Part shown: piece by piece, positions 8,211 through 14,967 of the stretch
Position numbering within the stretch: the stretch's first letter is position 1
Layout of the letters: each line of letters starts with the position of its first letter
DNA from: a virus
Strand: one strand, 5' to 3'
DNA length: 30,160 nucleotides
IMG/VR virus record: IMGVR_UViG_3300032323_000678
Coordinates: 1 to 30,160 of that record
Notes under the pieces: generated by a model
What the model saw: the letters and a program-made list of their open reading frames with translations, nothing else
What the model was told of the DNA's origin: nothing
The model's database searches: none
Made by a program: the position numbers and the translations under genes

Positions 8211-8564
8211 ATGGATAGACCCTTATGTGCCTCTTGTCACGGTAACCCTGTTGCTATAAACTACAAATCTGGTGACAAAGTAAGATATCGTAAGATTTGC
8301 AATGCTTGCATAAACAAAGGCAAGAAGGGAAAACCTGCTGCTGCGGCTTGGCAAAGGGCTGGCTATACGAAAAAGCCAGCGTGTGAAAAGTGCAACTTCA
8401 AATCCAAACACACCGAGCAGTTATTTGTTTTTTATTTAGACGGAAACTTAAAAAACAACAATTGGTCTAACTTGAAAACTGTGTGTGCCAACTGCAGGAT
8501 AGAAATCAATAAAGCCAAAATAAAAACTACTTGGCGTGAAAGTCCGCTGTCAGCAGATTACTAA
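8211..8564 (+). CDS. Small zinc-finger HNH-endonuclease-like protein, probably lacking catalytic His
   Basis: This protein has 117 residues from the ATG at 8211, or 122 from the ATG at 8196. Four Cys pairs are visible: CASC, CNAC, CEKC and CANC, giving two zinc-binding sites. The second half follows the HNH layout: CEKC, then a strand and YLDGNLKNNNWSNLKTVCANC. In active HNH proteins the residue before -DGN is preceded by a catalytic His (H-x-D-G-N). Here the sequence is FYLDGN, with Tyr at that place, and the final CxxC is followed by Arg rather than His. I recall close relatives in T4-like cyanophages with an intact His. It is the only plus-strand gene in the first 12 kb and overlaps the end of the kinase gene by 38 nt. 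It may act as a structural or DNA-binding zinc protein. Confidence 0.8.
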   Translation: MDRPLCASCHGNPVAINYKSGDKVRYRKICNACINKGKKGKPAAAAWQRAGYTKKPACEKCNFKSKHTEQLFVFYLDGNLKNNNWSNLKTVCANCRIEINKAKIKTTWRESPLSADY

Positions 8565-9186
8565 GTTGTCCGTAAAGCTGTTCCAGTGTGTCGTTATTGT
8601 TTACTTCGTAGTTGAATACTGATCCTACCCAAGCCCATTCTGATTGGTGCACTCGCGGATACCTTTGGGGCATCAATTGTCCTGCATCTTCGAGTAACCA
8701 TTGGCGATCCCAAGGTGTTGTGTTTTCTGTTAACGCACAGTCGTACCATTCGGGCAACGAGCCACGCTTTACCCAAACAATAATACCACCTGCGTTTCTG
8801 ATAGCTTGAATTTCATTGGGAAAACGCACATCGCTTATCACAGTATGACCATTCCGATGTCTTAGTCTATTTTCTAGAGCTGCGATCCAAATATCGTCGT
8901 GGAAGCCGCGGCGACACACATCTGTGCCCCAATACTGTAGTACCCACCTAGGAGTAAGGTCCGGCATGTTCAGTCGTTTTGCCCACCATGGATCTACTTG
9001 TTCTCGCCAGGTCCTGGCTTCAGGAGTTAGGCCTTCCAGTAGCTCTCTATCCCACCCGAACACAGCGGCCACAGCATCTTTAAGAGCGCCGGCAAAACTG
9101 TCACGTTTAAAGCCGTGTTGTGCTACAAAATAATTGGCTGCGGTGTCTTTACCTGATCCAATAAATCCGCAAATTCCTATGATCAT
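8527..9186 (-). CDS. gp1: Deoxynucleoside monophosphate kinase (gp1-like)
   Basis: This 219-residue protein (T4 gp1 is 241) phosphorylates dNMPs to dNDPs with ATP, feeding phage DNA synthesis in the cytoplasm. The P-loop is at residues 7-15 (GFIGSGKDT, with Asp in place of the usual Ser/Thr after Lys, as in this family). It is followed by FKRDSFAGALKDAVAAVFGW, the substrate-side RWVLQYWGTDVCR, and the Walker-B-like VISDVRFPNEIQAI at about 115-128. These are all family hallmarks. The C-terminus overlaps the convergent HNH-like gene. A terminator hairpin sits immediately before its ATG and contains its likely GGGG ribosome site (9195-9198), so expression may depend on hairpin opening or on transcription through it. 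Confidence 0.9.
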   Translation of the reverse strand: MIIGICGFIGSGKDTAANYFVAQHGFKRDSFAGALKDAVAAVFGWDRELLEGLTPEARTWREQVDPWWAKRLNMPDLTPRWVLQYWGTDVCRRGFHDDIWIAALENRLRHRNGHTVISDVRFPNEIQAIRNAGGIIVWVKRGSLPEWYDCALTENTTPWDRQWLLEDAGQLMPQRYPRVHQSEWAWVGSVFNYEVNNNDTLEQLYGQLSNLLTADFHAK

Positions 9187-9210
9187 AAAAAATGCCCCTT
9201 TTGGAGCATT
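9187..9210 (-). terminator. Intrinsic terminator between 9607 gene and dNMP kinase
   Basis: On the minus strand AATGCTCC and GGGGCATT form an 8-bp stem (one G-U pair) with an AAAA loop, followed by T residues up to the ATG at 9186. The 3' arm contains the only good ribosome site for the kinase, 8 nt before its ATG. The element could both end upstream transcripts and mask translation of the next gene. Confidence 0.75.
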
Positions 9211-9232
9211 ATATTTTATTTGTTGCTAAAAG

Positions 9233-9607
9233 TCAAACACCATATTTGTTTTTTTTCTTAGCAGCAACAGGGCTTGATTTATTAGTTGATTTTAATTCTT
9301 GGCTACGCATATCCCCGTGGTTAATGTCTTCAACGTTGGCACCTACTGCTTTATACGCAAGATTAAGCATGTCTTGGTCTACTTTTGAATAAGGGGCTGC
9401 AACTTTCCATTTGCCTACCCAGGATTCTTCGTCCACGTCTGGCATGGTTTTACCGTCAGTGCTGGCAACTGCTAGTCCCAGGCGATACAGAGTGTAATCT
9501 CCGTTCCATTTTTTACCATCGGAGAATTTGTTCAATCCTCTAGTGGGCAGGCGCTGTCTATCTTTGAGATCGCCCATTGTTTCATTAATAATATCTCTAA
9601 TTTTCAT
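9233..9607 (-). CDS. Small hypothetical phage protein (MKIRDII-type)
   Basis: This 124-residue protein starts at the ATG at 9607, which shares one base with the gp13 stop (TAATG). It begins MKIRDIINETMG, a start that I recall from many small proteins of environmental T4-like phages. The centre, YTLYRLGLAVAS, followed by APYSKVDQDMLNLAYKAVG, looks helical, and the tail is Lys-rich (AAKKKNKYGV). It is coupled to gp13 and followed by a terminator at 9187-9210. No function can be given. A head-tail joining accessory is suggested only by its operon position. Confidence 0.78.
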   Translation of the reverse strand: MKIRDIINETMGDLKDRQRLPTRGLNKFSDGKKWNGDYTLYRLGLAVASTDGKTMPDVDEESWVGKWKVAAPYSKVDQDMLNLAYKAVGANVEDINHGDMRSQELKSTNKSSPVAAKKKNKYGV

Positions 9608-10794
9608 TACCCAATTACCCATGTAAGCGGCATACTGCCATCAACATAATCTTTCAACTGTTGCTCAAGTGCATCCATTTCTGCTTGAGCTTCGGACTTC
9701 AATGCTGCACCGTTTAGAGTAGTTCCACCCTGTGGGCCAGAAATTGTACTGAACTTCTCTCTGGCTTCGCCAATAATACGTTTGGCAAAACTATAGGCAT
9801 ACTCCTGCAACCACGGGAAAGCATATGTATCATTGAACAACATCACGTCAGGTTTCACGTTATACGTCCACATCAGTATTGTTTCACTTACTGTATCTAG
9901 ATCAGGACTGTAAACTTGTGATACTCGTAAGTCATTTGTGTTTCCGCCTGTGTTGCTAACTGAAGTGCTGGTTAGAACATTTTGTGCTGTAACAGTTATT
10001 GTGAGCTTGTCAGCACTGACTGTTGCTGCGGTATAAATTCCGTTGTACCCACCAACCGGGCAATTTCTTATAATAATGTTGCCACCAACAGTCATGTCTG
10101 TCCACGGATCCTCTACCACTATGGTAATTGTGGATCCCACTGCTGTCCCGTTGGCAGATAACGATGTTAGGCGTCTATAATTAAATCCAACTTCAGGAAA
10201 CTTACGTACAACTGTGAATTTTTTTGTTACAGGGTTGAATGTAAAGTTGAGATGCCCGCCAAACATACGCATGGCAAGTTCTTGATACTGTGTAAACAGT
10301 TCGTAGTTGACCAAGCCGCCCACGCGGCCTGCCACCAACATATAAGTGTTAAGATAGCCGCTTGCAAACGGTTCAAATTGACTGGCTGTTGTGCCTGTAA
10401 CGCTACCAATACCTCTTCGGTAAACTGCACGAATTTGTTGAATTTCTGCAGGCAGTATGTACTCTTGCGTCTGCGGCAACAACTCCATGAATGCATAGGA
10501 TTCTTCGGTGCTGTTTTGAGCACGTTGACGATACTTGACCAACGCCGACTTGATTGCCAGTTCGTAGTGCTCTTTGTCTAGCTCTACATCTACTATACCA
10601 TCGCCTAATCTTAAGCGAATGTAGTCAATTATTTCTGCCCGTTTTCTTTCTACTGAAGTAAGCGATTCGTCGTTGAACGCAATCTTACCAGTGCCGGTCC
10701 CGCCGTTGGCGTCAAAAAGACTGCGTGTAATTAACGCATTGTTTTGTTTAAGGTTTTCTTCGGCACTAATATTACCAGTAAAGGGTGTAGACAT
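9607..10794 (-). CDS. gp13: Neck protein (gp13-like)
   Basis: This 395-residue protein (T4 gp13 is 309) forms the head-to-tail neck with gp14 and seals the DNA-filled head. Supporting segments are IIDYIRLRLGDGIVDVELDKEHYELAIKSALVKYRQR (about residues 55-92), the EESYAFMELLPQTQEYILPAEIQQIRAVYRRG strand region, then MLFNDTYAFPWLQEYAYSFAKRIIGEAREKF near the C-terminus. Residues about 205-290 are a Thr/Val-rich beta insertion (TITIVVEDPWTDM, ITVTAQNVLTSTS) that looks extra relative to T4. It has its own late box overlapping the stop of the upstream gene. Its ending is coupled to the next small gene. Confidence 0.83.
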   Translation of the reverse strand: MSTPFTGNISAEENLKQNNALITRSLFDANGGTGTGKIAFNDESLTSVERKRAEIIDYIRLRLGDGIVDVELDKEHYELAIKSALVKYRQRAQNSTEESYAFMELLPQTQEYILPAEIQQIRAVYRRGIGSVTGTTASQFEPFASGYLNTYMLVAGRVGGLVNYELFTQYQELAMRMFGGHLNFTFNPVTKKFTVVRKFPEVGFNYRRLTSLSANGTAVGSTITIVVEDPWTDMTVGGNIIIRNCPVGGYNGIYTAATVSADKLTITVTAQNVLTSTSVSNTGGNTNDLRVSQVYSPDLDTVSETILMWTYNVKPDVMLFNDTYAFPWLQEYAYSFAKRIIGEAREKFSTISGPQGGTTLNGAALKSEAQAEMDALEQQLKDYVDGSMPLTWVIG

Positions 10795-10815: not shown

Positions 10816-10823
10816 TATTTATT
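10816..10823 (-). promoter_or_regulatory. T4-type late promoter box for gp13
   Basis: The minus strand reads AATAAATA, including the TAA stop of the upstream gene, 21 nt before the ATG at 10794. A GAGAG ribosome site is in the leader. It lets gp13 be transcribed late while the upstream gene uses a sigma70 promoter. Confidence 0.6.
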
Positions 10824-12015
10824 GAACTTTTAAGAGAACAGTATCCGAATTCATGCGTCCGTTGCCCAGGGTCTCTGTGGCTTTGATATCTTCAAGAAAC
10901 TTGCGTAGCTGCACCTTGCTAGCCTTGGCAAATTCTTTGAGCTTTTCTTCGGGTTTACGCAGGGTCTTGCCTACACTCTTTGTTTCATCAAACCCAGTTA
11001 AACTGGTACCTTTGACGCCTAACGGACCGTGCAAGCTGTCGGCTATGTACTTGTACAGTTTACGAGTTTTGGTATTATAGGCCCACAGCTCTTGTGCGCC
11101 AACAATATCCACAGGGTTGATACTGACCAGTTTCAGCGTCTTTTCTTCTTTCATGTATTTGAGCTTGCTAACCAGTTTTTCTTTATTAGGCGCACGTTTT
11201 ACACGAGCTTTTTTGGTAGCTTTCTTGACGCTGCGATACTGATCCAATGCATCCAGAATGCTTTGTATAAAAGCATGGTGTCGCTTGAAGTCAGCTGCTT
11301 TGTAGTGTCGATAAGCTTCTACCACTTGCTCGTCAGCTTTGGCCAATGCTTCGCCTAGCTCAGTTTTACGTGCCATAAACAAATCTTCAAACTTTTTGAT
11401 TTGACTTTGAGGCACTGCATTAGACACTAGATAATCGTAAGCTTTCGGGTCAACTGTGTCCCCTGCTACTACTTCGTCGTACAAGCCCTCAAAATGTGCC
11501 AGGTGCTCGCTTGTTTTTTCGTTGAGCCTGTCCTGAATAGTTGGCGCACGAACTGCTACGGTTGGTTGTGCGGGCTGTGCAGGCTTGCCTCCTGTGGTTG
11601 TTTCTTCAGGTTCTGCATCTGCAATATTAATTGCATGATCAATACGCTCTTTGAGATACGTCAACTCTTTTTCTCGCAAAGGCATACCCTGTCGACTGGA
11701 CATGAGAATACTGTAAGCAGTCATTGGAACTGCTCTGTCTGCACTGCGTATAAAGGCACTCACTTGAGTTTTGGTGTACTTGTTTTCTTGCATCCATTTG
11801 ACCATGTGCTTTTTAAGGTCTTTTTGAGCATAGAAGTAATTGTAATAGAAAAAACCTTTACGCAAAAAGTGATCAAATTCTTCTTGCGACATTTTAAGGG
11901 CACGTTCAGTATCCCATACGGGTTCGCCGCCTGTGTACTTTTCGTCAGTGAACAACGGGTCTCTAGTTTTTTTGGGTGCTCGCTTGGGTGCTTTGACGCT
12001 TTGTGCTGTAGCCAT
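10819..12015 (-). CDS. Unknown basic protein under a consensus sigma70 promoter
   Basis: This protein has 398 residues from the ATG at 12015, chosen because AAGGAG lies 6-9 nt upstream and a perfect promoter sits just before it. The N-terminus is Lys/Arg/Pro-rich (SVKAPKRAPKKTRDP). Helical regions follow (KMSQEEFDHFLRKGFFYYNYFY, KTQVSAFIRSADRAVPMT), then a long charged helix with KATKKARVKRAPNKEK at about 285-300. The C-terminal domain looks well folded (LKLVSINPVDIVGAQELWAYN, TRKLYKYIADSLHGPLGVKG, STLTGFDET-like turn, KVQLRKFLEDIKAT). I recall this C-terminal pattern from uncharacterised proteins of environmental T4-like phages. The basic segments suggest nucleic-acid binding and the promoter suggests early expression. 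No function is known to me. Confidence 0.85.
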   Translation of the reverse strand: MATAQSVKAPKRAPKKTRDPLFTDEKYTGGEPVWDTERALKMSQEEFDHFLRKGFFYYNYFYAQKDLKKHMVKWMQENKYTKTQVSAFIRSADRAVPMTAYSILMSSRQGMPLREKELTYLKERIDHAINIADAEPEETTTGGKPAQPAQPTVAVRAPTIQDRLNEKTSEHLAHFEGLYDEVVAGDTVDPKAYDYLVSNAVPQSQIKKFEDLFMARKTELGEALAKADEQVVEAYRHYKAADFKRHHAFIQSILDALDQYRSVKKATKKARVKRAPNKEKLVSKLKYMKEEKTLKLVSINPVDIVGAQELWAYNTKTRKLYKYIADSLHGPLGVKGTSLTGFDETKSVGKTLRKPEEKLKEFAKASKVQLRKFLEDIKATETLGNGRMNSDTVLLKVQ

Positions 12016-12046
12016 ATGGGTAGCTCCTTGTACTGTGCAAAATGCT

Positions 12047-12075
12047 ATTATACTATTCTTTGGGATTTTTGTCAA
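12047..12075 (-). promoter_or_regulatory. Perfect-consensus sigma70 promoter for the 12015 gene
   Basis: The minus strand has TTGACA (12070-12075), a 17-bp spacer and TATAAT (12047-12052). The spacer is the last codons (KNPKE) and the stop of the upstream small gene. The predicted start is near 12040, leaving a leader of about 25 nt with AAGGAG. Confidence 0.88.
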
Positions 12076-12334
12076 GCAGTGTTGCAAAAACGAGCCACCC
12101 TTGCAATTCTTGCAACTGTTGTTGCACTTTTGCTAACTGCTCATCGTAGTGGGCGGAATGCCCAAACTTGCGTTTGTCAATCTGTAGCTTACTTAACTCT
12201 GTAACACTATTGTTTAAATTACGATACATTCGTTCCATCTGACGCTTGTTGGGCAGGTTATTCATTGCCCAAAGTGTTCGTCTGATTTCTTGGTCAATTT
12301 TGGGCCAATCATCTAAGGATACGAAATCGCTCAT
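12053..12334 (-). CDS. Small hypothetical protein, probably early and leaderless
   Basis: This 93-residue, charged, helical protein begins MSDFVSLDDWPKIDQEIRRT. Its long C-terminal part has heptad-like Leu/Gln spacing (ELSKLQIDKRKFG, YDEQLAKVQQQLQELQG), suggesting a short coiled coil. There is no signal peptide or membrane segment. The promoter at 12342-12370 would start the RNA one base before the ATG, and no ribosome site is present. Its stop codon touches the -10 box of the next gene's promoter. The function is unknown. Small early proteins of this kind in phages often target host factors, but nothing in the sequence shows that here. Confidence 0.75.
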   Translation of the reverse strand: MSDFVSLDDWPKIDQEIRRTLWAMNNLPNKRQMERMYRNLNNSVTELSKLQIDKRKFGHSAHYDEQLAKVQQQLQELQGWLVFATLLDKNPKE

Positions 12335-12341
12335 TGTTTAA

Positions 12342-12370
12342 ATTATACACATTATCCTAATTTATGTCAA
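12342..12370 (-). promoter_or_regulatory. Perfect-consensus sigma70 promoter for the 12334 gene
   Basis: The minus strand has TTGACA (12365-12370), a 17-bp spacer and TATAAT (12342-12347). Only seven bases (TTAAACA) separate the -10 box from the ATG, placing the start site at about 12335 and giving a leaderless or one-base leader. Confidence 0.88.
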
Positions 12371-12381
12371 TTTTGGTAACC

Positions 12382-12389
12382 GCTAAATA
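12382..12389 (+). promoter_or_regulatory. T4-type late promoter box for gp14-gp15 block
   Basis: The plus strand reads GCTAAATA, with the TAAATA core, 20 nt before the GTG at 12410. AGGAAA (12399-12404) is the ribosome site. It is back to back with the sigma70 promoter of the 12334 gene, so early and late transcription diverge here. Confidence 0.5.
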
Positions 12390-12409: not shown

Positions 12410-13594
12410 GTGCCTAGATTATCACTTTGGAAAGACGGAAAACATTCAAACGATTACAAGTTCTTGGATCGTAGAATCAGCGAAATGTTTACCGTTGGCG
12501 GTACCGGAATTTATGTACACAAATATCTAGGAACATTCTCTGCAAATGTAGCAGATCCTAGCCCCACGCAACCGTATTATGCCAATCAAAGCGAATTAAA
12601 CATCCAGGACTTGCTGTTTTTGGAAAATCGCGATCGCAAGTACGATCCAGATGTTTACAACATGCGTGGCATTTATACCGTACAGGACAACAGTTTTGAT
12701 CTTAGCCAATTTGGTTTGTTTATACAGACTGGCACACTGTTTATGGTATTTCATATCAACGACATGATGGCCACCCTGGGGCGTAAACTGATCAACGGCG
12801 ATGTACTTGAACTACAACATTTACTTGATTACAATTCACTAGATAATTCAGTACCAGTTGCATTAAAAAGATTCTTTGTGGTTAGCGATGCACAATTTTC
12901 ATCAGAAGGTTTTACTCCCACATGGTGGCCGCATTTATGGCGTGTCAAGTTAAATCCGTTAACTGACAGTCAGGAATACAAAGACATTCTTGACAATATC
13001 AAGAGCGATCCTTTAAATGCCAACAGTGCCCCAATTGGTGAATATCTATCCACATTAGAAAAATATCAGGCAATCAATGACGCAATTATACAACAGGCCG
13101 CACAGGATGTACCAAGCAGTGGATACAACACATCCATGATCTACACCAAGGCTGTGCTGCCCGACGGTAGACCTGCTGATCCACCAGGAACATCAGCCGG
13201 TGATAGTTCTAACATATCTGTTGATACCGGTACTCTTACCGCAGACATTATAGCATTGACATCAACTGCCAAAGTTGGTGGATATATGAGTGGTGACGGT
13301 ACTGCCCCGAACGGACTTGCTGTAGGCAACGGAATCAGCTTTCCTACTAGTCCAAGTTTGGGTCAGTACTTCTTGAGGTTAGATTATTTGCCTAATAGGC
13401 TGTTTAGATATGATGGCAATCGTTGGCTCAAGGTAGAAGATAAAGTAAGAACGTCGCTTACTCCAGGCAGTGATAATCAATCGCAAACTTCAAGTTATAT
13501 CAATAACACCAAGACCTGGACCGATGCTAGTGGAGTTGAACGCAACGAAAGAACTAGTTTGAGCAAGGCATTAAAACCACTGGCGGATAATTAA
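12410..13594 (+). CDS. gp14: Neck protein, gp14-like
   Basis: This 394-residue protein starts at a GTG with AGGAAA 7 nt upstream. Resemblance to gp14 rests on the order of segments: FDLSQFGLFIQTGTLFMVFHIND, then GRKLINGDVLELQHL (as in the gp14 'GDLIYFP' turn), KRFFVVSDAQF and WWPHLWRVKLNPL. Its place directly before gp15 on the same strand also fits. T4 gp14 is 256 residues. The C-terminal extension (about 290-394) includes ISFPTSPSLGQYFLRLDYLP and LFRYDGNRWLKVED. This is the same FPTSP-x-x-GQ ... W-K module found at the N-termini of fibre proteins farther right. Two bases separate it from gp15. A different neck or tail-connector role remains possible. Confidence 0.6.
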   Translation: MPRLSLWKDGKHSNDYKFLDRRISEMFTVGGTGIYVHKYLGTFSANVADPSPTQPYYANQSELNIQDLLFLENRDRKYDPDVYNMRGIYTVQDNSFDLSQFGLFIQTGTLFMVFHINDMMATLGRKLINGDVLELQHLLDYNSLDNSVPVALKRFFVVSDAQFSSEGFTPTWWPHLWRVKLNPLTDSQEYKDILDNIKSDPLNANSAPIGEYLSTLEKYQAINDAIIQQAAQDVPSSGYNTSMIYTKAVLPDGRPADPPGTSAGDSSNISVDTGTLTADIIALTSTAKVGGYMSGDGTAPNGLAVGNGISFPTSPSLGQYFLRLDYLPNRLFRYDGNRWLKVEDKVRTSLTPGSDNQSQTSSYINNTKTWTDASGVERNERTSLSKALKPLADN

Positions 13595-13596
13595 AC

Positions 13597-14967
13597 ATGT
13601 ATAGAGATTTCTTTTATGACGGTCAAGTAAGACGATTCATTACGCAATTTATGCGTATGATATCAAACATTCAAGTTGAGTTTGGGGTCAACCGTGACAA
13701 CGTGCGTGCCTTGCAACGTGTACCTGTGTACTACGGGGATAGTAGCAGACAGGTCGCTAGTATACTCAAAAACAATTCTGAAAGTATGTTGAGTGCGGTT
13801 CCGGCCATGGCAGTGTACGTTGGTTCGCTACAGTATGATCGTGAACGTGTACAAGATCCTTTTTTGGTCAGCAAGGTAAGAATCAGAGAAAGACTGTATG
13901 ATCCCATAACAGGAGAGTATACCAATCAGCAAGGAGATCTAGTAACTGTAGATCGTCCCATGCCGGTGCCATACAAACTCACTCTCAAAGTAGATATTTG
14001 GACTAGCAGCACTGAACAAAAATTGCAGCTATTGGAACAGCTGATGGTGTTATTCAACCCAGGCTTGGAAATTCAAAGTTCAGACAACTATGTAGATTGG
14101 GCAAGTCTGAGCGTGGTATTCTTAACTGATGTGACATGGAGTTCAAGATCGGTTCCTGTTGGTACAGAAGAACCAATTGATGTTGCAACAATGACTTTTG
14201 AAATTCCAATTTGGATCAGTGTACCAGTCGCAGTAAAACAATTTGGAGTTATTAAGAAAATTATTGCCAGCGTGTTTGACGCCGACGGTAATTTGAGTCC
14301 TGCAATTTTTGACACAGATGAAAAACTAATTGCCAGAAAAACTGTTACACCATTGGATTACCGAGTTCTTTATGTGGGCAGCGAACTGCTGCTGTTGAAG
14401 CCCGAGGATGTGGACAATCGTAGAGGTGGCAAATTTGGATCTGACGATTCGTGGCCTGCCTTGATCGATGTATATGGTCATATGACCAATGGTGTTAGTC
14501 AAATAAAATTAGTCACGCCAGCTGGCAATGAAATAGTAGGAACTGTTGCATTTAACCCAACTGACAATACTCGACTGTTGTATTCACCGTTTATTGACAC
14601 ACTACCGGCCAACACCTTGGATCCGGTTGATGCAATCATTGATCCGTTAAACGTAGAAGTTGACAGTGAATTATTGACTCCCACAAACGGTACACGATAT
14701 TTGATTCTCAATGATATTGGATCCTTCAGTAATTTACAACCAAGCGAAGTTTGGGTAGGGTCAAACAATCAAAACTTTGTGGCCAGAGCCAACGACATAA
14801 TAGAATATAATAATGGGTGGACTGTGAGTTTTGACAGCTTCTCTAACCCTGCAATCGAATACGTGACCAATCTTACTACACAAATTCAATACCGATGGTT
14901 TGGCGGCGAGTGGGCCAAGAGTGTCGAAGGTGTGTACGGCGAGGGCGAATGGACACTGATTCTATAA
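13597..14967 (+). CDS. gp15: Tail completion and sheath stabiliser protein (gp15-like)
   Basis: This 456-residue protein (T4 gp15 is 272) caps the finished tail and connects it to the neck. The family pattern is clear in the N-terminal 230 residues: FFYDGQVRRFITQFMRMISN, RVPVYYGDSSRQVA, SMLSAVPAMAVYVGSLQYDR, PYKLTLKVDIWTSSTEQKLQ, VLFNPGLEIQSSDNYVDW and WSSRSVPVGTEEPIDVATMT. The last 220 residues are an added beta-rich region (TPTNGTRYLILNDIGS, NDIIEYNNGWTVSFD, IQYRWFGGEWAKS). This probably contributes extra contacts at the neck. The 3' end overlaps the Nudix start by 19 nt. Confidence 0.88.
   Translation: MYRDFFYDGQVRRFITQFMRMISNIQVEFGVNRDNVRALQRVPVYYGDSSRQVASILKNNSESMLSAVPAMAVYVGSLQYDRERVQDPFLVSKVRIRERLYDPITGEYTNQQGDLVTVDRPMPVPYKLTLKVDIWTSSTEQKLQLLEQLMVLFNPGLEIQSSDNYVDWASLSVVFLTDVTWSSRSVPVGTEEPIDVATMTFEIPIWISVPVAVKQFGVIKKIIASVFDADGNLSPAIFDTDEKLIARKTVTPLDYRVLYVGSELLLLKPEDVDNRRGGKFGSDDSWPALIDVYGHMTNGVSQIKLVTPAGNEIVGTVAFNPTDNTRLLYSPFIDTLPANTLDPVDAIIDPLNVEVDSELLTPTNGTRYLILNDIGSFSNLQPSEVWVGSNNQNFVARANDIIEYNNGWTVSFDSFSNPAIEYVTNLTTQIQYRWFGGEWAKSVEGVYGEGEWTLIL

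Follow-up and report, generated by a model that had tools for sequence, protein, structure and literature searches.

We analyzed a window of 30,160 nucleotides (positions 1 to 30,160 of the IMG/VR virus record IMGVR_UViG_3300032323_000678), in which the genes of a 93-amino-acid (aa) and a 398-aa protein are located between a gp13-like gene and a gp14/gp15 block, each of them behind a consensus sigma70 promoter. The locus and its surroundings contain the following features.

8527..9186, minus strand: gene of a dNMP kinase; it belongs to nucleotide metabolism and lies within the same late block
9208..9236, minus strand: third strong sigma70 site (11/12), upstream of the dNMP kinase gene
9607-10794, minus strand: head-tail adaptor Ad2-type (gp13-like) protein
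10816..10823, minus strand: late box AATAAATA ahead of the gp13-like gene; it overlaps the 398-aa stop codon (coordinates obtained by counting along the upstream sequence)
10819..12015, minus strand: 398-aa basic protein P0002 (phrog_11903)
12024..12029, minus strand: Shine-Dalgarno sequence AAGGAG of the 398-aa gene, read from the sequence; predicted leader of about 25 nt
12047..12075, minus strand: sigma70 consensus promoter P2, overlapping the 3' end of the 93-aa gene (its final codons and stop)
12053..12334, minus strand: 93-aa protein P0001, with a predicted leaderless mRNA
12342..12370, minus strand: sigma70 consensus promoter P1, predicted to start transcription (+1) at 12334-12335, on the 93-aa ATG
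12383..12389, plus strand: CTAAATA, the T4-type late box belonging to the gp14-like gene; P1 and this box stand back to back
12410-14967, plus strand: virion structural protein (gp14-like) and T4-gp15

The first-pass annotation had reported two perfect sigma70 promoters upstream of 93- and 398-residue open reading frames (ORFs) between gp13 and the gp14/gp15 block, and both the promoters and, from the ORFs and profile matches, the gene arrangement were confirmed. P1 and P2 match TTGACA and TATAAT without mismatch, have spacers of 17 nt each (16 to 18 nt being allowed) and are the sole 12/12 sites within the window. A first-order Markov model of the window predicts a mean of 0.0095 such sites, with no more than one in 2,000 simulations. 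Promoter-like sites in general numbered 30 in the window and 32.6 in shuffled sequences.

Several structural genes of the window have late-type (N)ATAAATA or CTAAATA boxes upstream. The earlier description of the rest of the window as carrying late-type boxes overlooks the additional strong sigma70 site at 9208-9236 (minus strand). No late box was found in the 120 bp upstream of either the 93-aa or the 398-aa ORF. Promoters at this locus are placed in the tail of the preceding unit, with the gp13 late box over the 398-aa stop codon and P2 over the end of the 93-aa gene. The window scan listed no terminator-like site between the 398-aa gene and gp13, and the 398-aa transcript may therefore run into the late gene.

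To assess the conservation of the promoters, we used the 398-aa protein to retrieve relatives; one scan yielded 478 confirmed viral loci, of which the best 80 (L001 to L080) were considered close relatives. P2 was retained with a score of at least 11/12 in 74 of the 75 close-relative loci that have 90 bp of upstream sequence, and P1 at the same score in 62 of the 68 that have 400 bp. The expectation that orthologues should keep both promoters was thus borne out. Additional scans with the homologues from phiM12 and PA5oct as queries resulted in a diverse set of 91 representatives with less than 75% identity, 88 of which, from several gene neighborhoods, had at least 150 bp upstream and were scored. 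A site of at least 11/12 preceded the 398-aa homologue in 44 of the 88 (0.55 expected from shuffles) and a 12/12 site in 20 (0.0 in shuffles), and these sites began mostly at -54 to -63 from the start codon. Strong sites were found before 99 of 944 other ORFs (~10%) of the same loci. The diverse homologues that have only sites weaker than 11/12 amounted to 44 of 88; the scores were 7/12 in phiM12 and 9/12 in Cr30, and the entire records of phiM12, Cr30, and DLP6 contain zero TTGAC-18-TATANT sites. Since many promoter-bearing homologues are in other gene neighborhoods, the promoter appears to travel with the 398-aa gene. Taken together, the conservation in orthologues and diverse homologues indicates that the promoter function of P1 and P2 is under selection.

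The position of P1 is unusually constrained. Among 47 distinct upstream regions of 93-aa orthologues, derived from 73 tblastn finds, the -10 box of a site of at least 10/12 ended 5 to 8 nt before the ATG in all 47. All 47 genes start with ATG, which had been preferred in the choice of start codon, and a Shine-Dalgarno-like motif was present in none. A set of family members found by profile, excluding five matches too near a contig end, showed the same spacing in 74 of 74, a figure that is partly circular because the seeds had been picked for having the promoter. The 398-aa gene, in contrast, has a GTG start in 6 of 77 cases, a predicted leader of ~25 nt, and the AAGGAG sequence. From the proximity of the -10 box to the ATG and the lack of a Shine-Dalgarno motif, P1 should give rise to a leaderless mRNA that starts at or next to the ATG.

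P1 also has a conserved neighbor on the opposite strand. The late box of the gp14-like gene was found 0 to 12 bp from the P1 -35 box in 72 of 73 relatives, as compared to a background of 1%, and the distance was exactly 12 bp in 42 of these relatives. The two promoters are too close for two polymerases, and transcription from P1 and late transcription of gp14 are thus likely to be mutually exclusive.

As had been suggested, both proteins were compared with viral protein clusters, and the 398-aa protein also with structures. The 398-aa protein matches the phrog_11903 profile (8.5e-75; residues 16-397 on positions 15-382 of 383), as do all 75 aligned members; PHROGs lists this family as of unknown function. 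Only four relatives were retrieved from bacterial or archaeal genomes, all of them on contigs of metagenome-assembled genomes (MAGs), so the family names no host. Its members are basic (pI 8.8-9.9), and the best conserved part is the K/R-rich C-terminal domain, in which K316, R318, K319, K335, K350, R353, K354, K367, and R387 are near-invariant. In the AlphaFold models, the N-terminal part and the middle are helical and the C-terminal domain has an alpha/beta structure (pLDDT 88.8 and pTM 0.47 for the whole protein; 82.9 and 0.72 for the C-terminal domain). Foldseek searches with these models (E ≤ 0.001) returned no convincing fold match in the PDB, whereas seven uncharacterised or unnamed viral proteins were matched in BFVD at the same threshold. 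The C-terminal model aligns mostly with Sm/LSm chains, weakly (best Z 4.2, 68 aligned residues, 3.5 Å), and matches to KTSC were also weak. The middle domain aligns with the UvsY recombination mediator (4zws_C, Z 5.6), amid unrelated helical proteins. A relationship of the C-terminal domain to WYL_2 (PF10902) was considered and rejected, as hhalign gave a probability of 0.1% against a four-sequence WYL_2 profile. Small WYL_2 genes were themselves observed directly upstream of the 398-aa homologues at four loci (L112, L126, L131, and L148), each behind a perfect sigma70 site.

The 398-aa homologue has rnh and phoH in its neighborhood in phiM12, DLP6, and OC, together with nrd genes, ligase, or gp33/59/32, depending on the phage. 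In the relative G001, other strong sigma70 sites were located upstream of genes with matches to SSB, UvsX, an NTP pyrophosphohydrolase, and an HNH nuclease, and one such site is ahead of a gene whose structural match is weak and which also has a late box. The basic conserved domain, the replication-region neighbors, and the early-type genes of G001 favor an early protein that binds nucleic acid and acts in the DNA or RNA metabolism of the phage. The role in DNA handling that had been proposed for the pair is thus plausible for the 398-aa protein, but host takeover, its proposed alternative, has no direct support. The HNH endonuclease gene mentioned above (L096:8781-9308; promoter at G001 88721-88749) is on the opposite strand beside a terminase gene, and its sigma70 site recurs in several relatives.

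The 93-aa protein represents a new small family, of which 44 diverse members were collected. They are small, probably helical as judged from sequence, and share a conserved basic patch. No database family fitted: matches in Pfam and PHROGs were weak and scattered, PADLOC returned nothing, and there was no match in cultured phages. The idea that it might be the late coactivator gp33 was discarded, as no resemblance to the translated gp33 of phage OC was seen by eye. The view of the two genes as a pair was upheld in part. Some close relatives retain the 398-aa gene with P2 while lacking the 93-aa gene and P1, and the small genes adjoining other 398-aa-type genes are different ones.

The spacing seen at P1 was also found before other genes, mostly of the DNA-metabolism type, in related large phages. 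Among 368 strong sites in the loci of the phiM12- and PA5oct-homologue scans, the first ATG-initiated ORF was at exactly 6 nt in 46, as compared to ~1.4 expected per position, and a second, broad peak was observed near 30 nt. Grouping of the downstream genes showed that 18 of 79 families have a member at 5 to 8 nt (P about 1e-7, the families not being fully independent). The N5-8-ATG pattern was present in 17 of 21 large records, six of which are cultured phages, whereas a reversed-pattern control gave 2 matches. In four large contigs, 35 of 48 TTGAC-18-TATANT-N5-8-ATG sites opened an ORF of at least 50 aa, as compared to 21.6% of control ATGs, and 13 of 48 did not. By eye, the products included DnaJ-like, exonuclease-like, endonuclease-like, and kinase-like proteins, several of which recur between contigs. 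PA5oct has five pattern sites. One matches an annotated start (158242); at three, the annotated gene that follows is in another reading frame, and the remaining one is not close to any annotated gene, so that PA5oct alone does not support a leaderless class.

Several further observations concern this pattern. The PA5oct gene with the annotated start exactly at the pattern ATG encodes a putative exonuclease (EST35_0240; MK797984, 158242-158907) and is flanked by structural genes that carry a mass-spectrometry mark. In L142, L223, L164, and L136, the 398-aa homologue is preceded by several consecutive small genes, each with its own consensus sigma70 promoter and an ATG 5 to 8 nt after the -10 box. 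Some TATAAT-N6-ATG sites (L273, L274, L306, L309, and others in G014, G011, and G015) are followed by tiny ORFs of 2 to 6 codons, possibly leader peptides, four of which have four codons (two MLRN, one MLSN, and one MLRR). A phage-encoded ribosomal protein bS21 was detected in 11 of 15 large contigs searched, G001 among them; a link to leaderless translation would be speculation.

The lambda cI mRNA is an example of a leaderless phage transcript. More generally, phage transcripts are called "often leaderless" in a passage of PMC5312081. The predicted 93-aa mRNA would resemble such messages, since its start codon, always ATG, coincides with or adjoins the predicted 5' end and a Shine-Dalgarno sequence is absent. 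What differs is that an entire class of consensus promoters of large uncultivated phages has the TATAAT-N5-8-ATG spacing before unrelated early-type genes. For T4-like phages, an extract of PMC1524935 describes sigma70 early promoters with a GTTTAC-like -35 box upstream of novel ORFs. P1 and P2 are similar to those promoters in that they would be read by the host polymerase, precede genes of unknown function, and are beside late genes with TATAAATA-type promoters. Unlike the promoters of that extract, they have the plain bacterial consensus, and P1 leaves no room for a leader. As to SH3-type barrels, most alignments of the C-terminal model are to Sm/LSm chains, with weak scores (Z ≤ 4.2), and the profile comparison with WYL_2, whose genes directly precede some homologues, fails. 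PHROGs gives no function for phrog_11903; the promoter conservation, the basic C-terminal domain, and the neighborhoods have been worked out here. Among the papers listed by our literature searches, none dealt with the 93-aa/398-aa gene pair or the TATAAT-N5-8-ATG promoter class. Early sigma70 genes among the late genes of a T4-like phage are of a known kind; the unusually strict, predicted leaderless arrangement sets this locus apart.

There is good support for the locus being an island of early type within a late block, because orthologues keep the promoters and late boxes are lacking before both genes; that it is expressed early, we infer from the sequences. The proposal of an unrecognised early pair accordingly stands as regards the island, and only partly as regards pairing and function. 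In the explanation that we consider probable and the best overall, the island would be surrounded by the late neck/tail genes of a T4-like phage, and unmodified host RNA polymerase with sigma70 would read P1 and P2 at the start of infection. Transcription from P1 would begin at or next to the 93-aa ATG and produce a leaderless mRNA translated without a Shine-Dalgarno sequence. P2, which overlaps the 3' end of the 93-aa gene, would drive an mRNA of its own, whose leader of ~25 nt carries a strong Shine-Dalgarno sequence for the 398-aa protein. This protein would most likely bind nucleic acid via its conserved K/R-rich C-terminal domain and function in the DNA or RNA metabolism of the phage. As long as P1 is occupied early on, late gp14 transcription would be excluded, and later the polymerase carrying the phage sigma factor would silence P1.

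Other explanations were weighed against this one. The promoters could be real but active throughout infection or as middle promoters, the 398-aa protein being a head/neck assembly or internal head protein in need of extra expression. A count by eye places the 398-aa gene next to gp13/gp14-like genes in about 34 of the 91 representatives; in PA5oct it lies immediately ahead of the neck protein gene, and in the window no terminator-like site was listed between it and gp13, all of which would suit such a protein. However, homologues elsewhere are in replication regions, there is no late box upstream, and the PA5oct homologue lacks the mark for detection by mass spectrometry that the next three genes carry; we therefore regard this explanation as unlikely. 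It is still less probable that the genes form a selfish or mobile, moron-like early cassette between late genes, with its own promoter for each gene and no role in DNA handling. The variable stretch between gp14 and the 398-aa gene, with extra promoter-bearing genes in L142, L223, L164, and L136, and the absence of the 93-aa gene from some relatives are consistent with a cassette, but the presence of the 398-aa gene in hundreds of viral contigs (the 478 confirmed loci) and in diverse neighborhoods suggests a core function. Chance or compositional matches devoid of promoter function can be considered highly improbable: promoter-like sites in general are no more common than in shuffles, but perfect ones exceed expectation by far, and conservation at a fixed distance in very diverged relatives already refutes chance.

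An early island with a nucleic-acid-binding 398-aa protein, a leaderless 93-aa mRNA, and exclusion between P1 and gp14 hence remains our preferred explanation. As a more tentative possibility, large T4-like and jumbo environmental phages might run a distinct early program of leaderless mRNAs, in which consensus sigma70 promoters start transcription at the very AUG of mutually unrelated genes for takeover and DNA metabolism, and translation is free of Shine-Dalgarno sequences and possibly tuned by bS21; the 93-aa gene would be its most strictly conserved example. On promoter conservation alone, two phage protein families that had not been characterised can be classed as probable early genes; one of these families is very common (478 confirmed loci in one scan). 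The data also point to leaderless translation as a regular early strategy of large phages.
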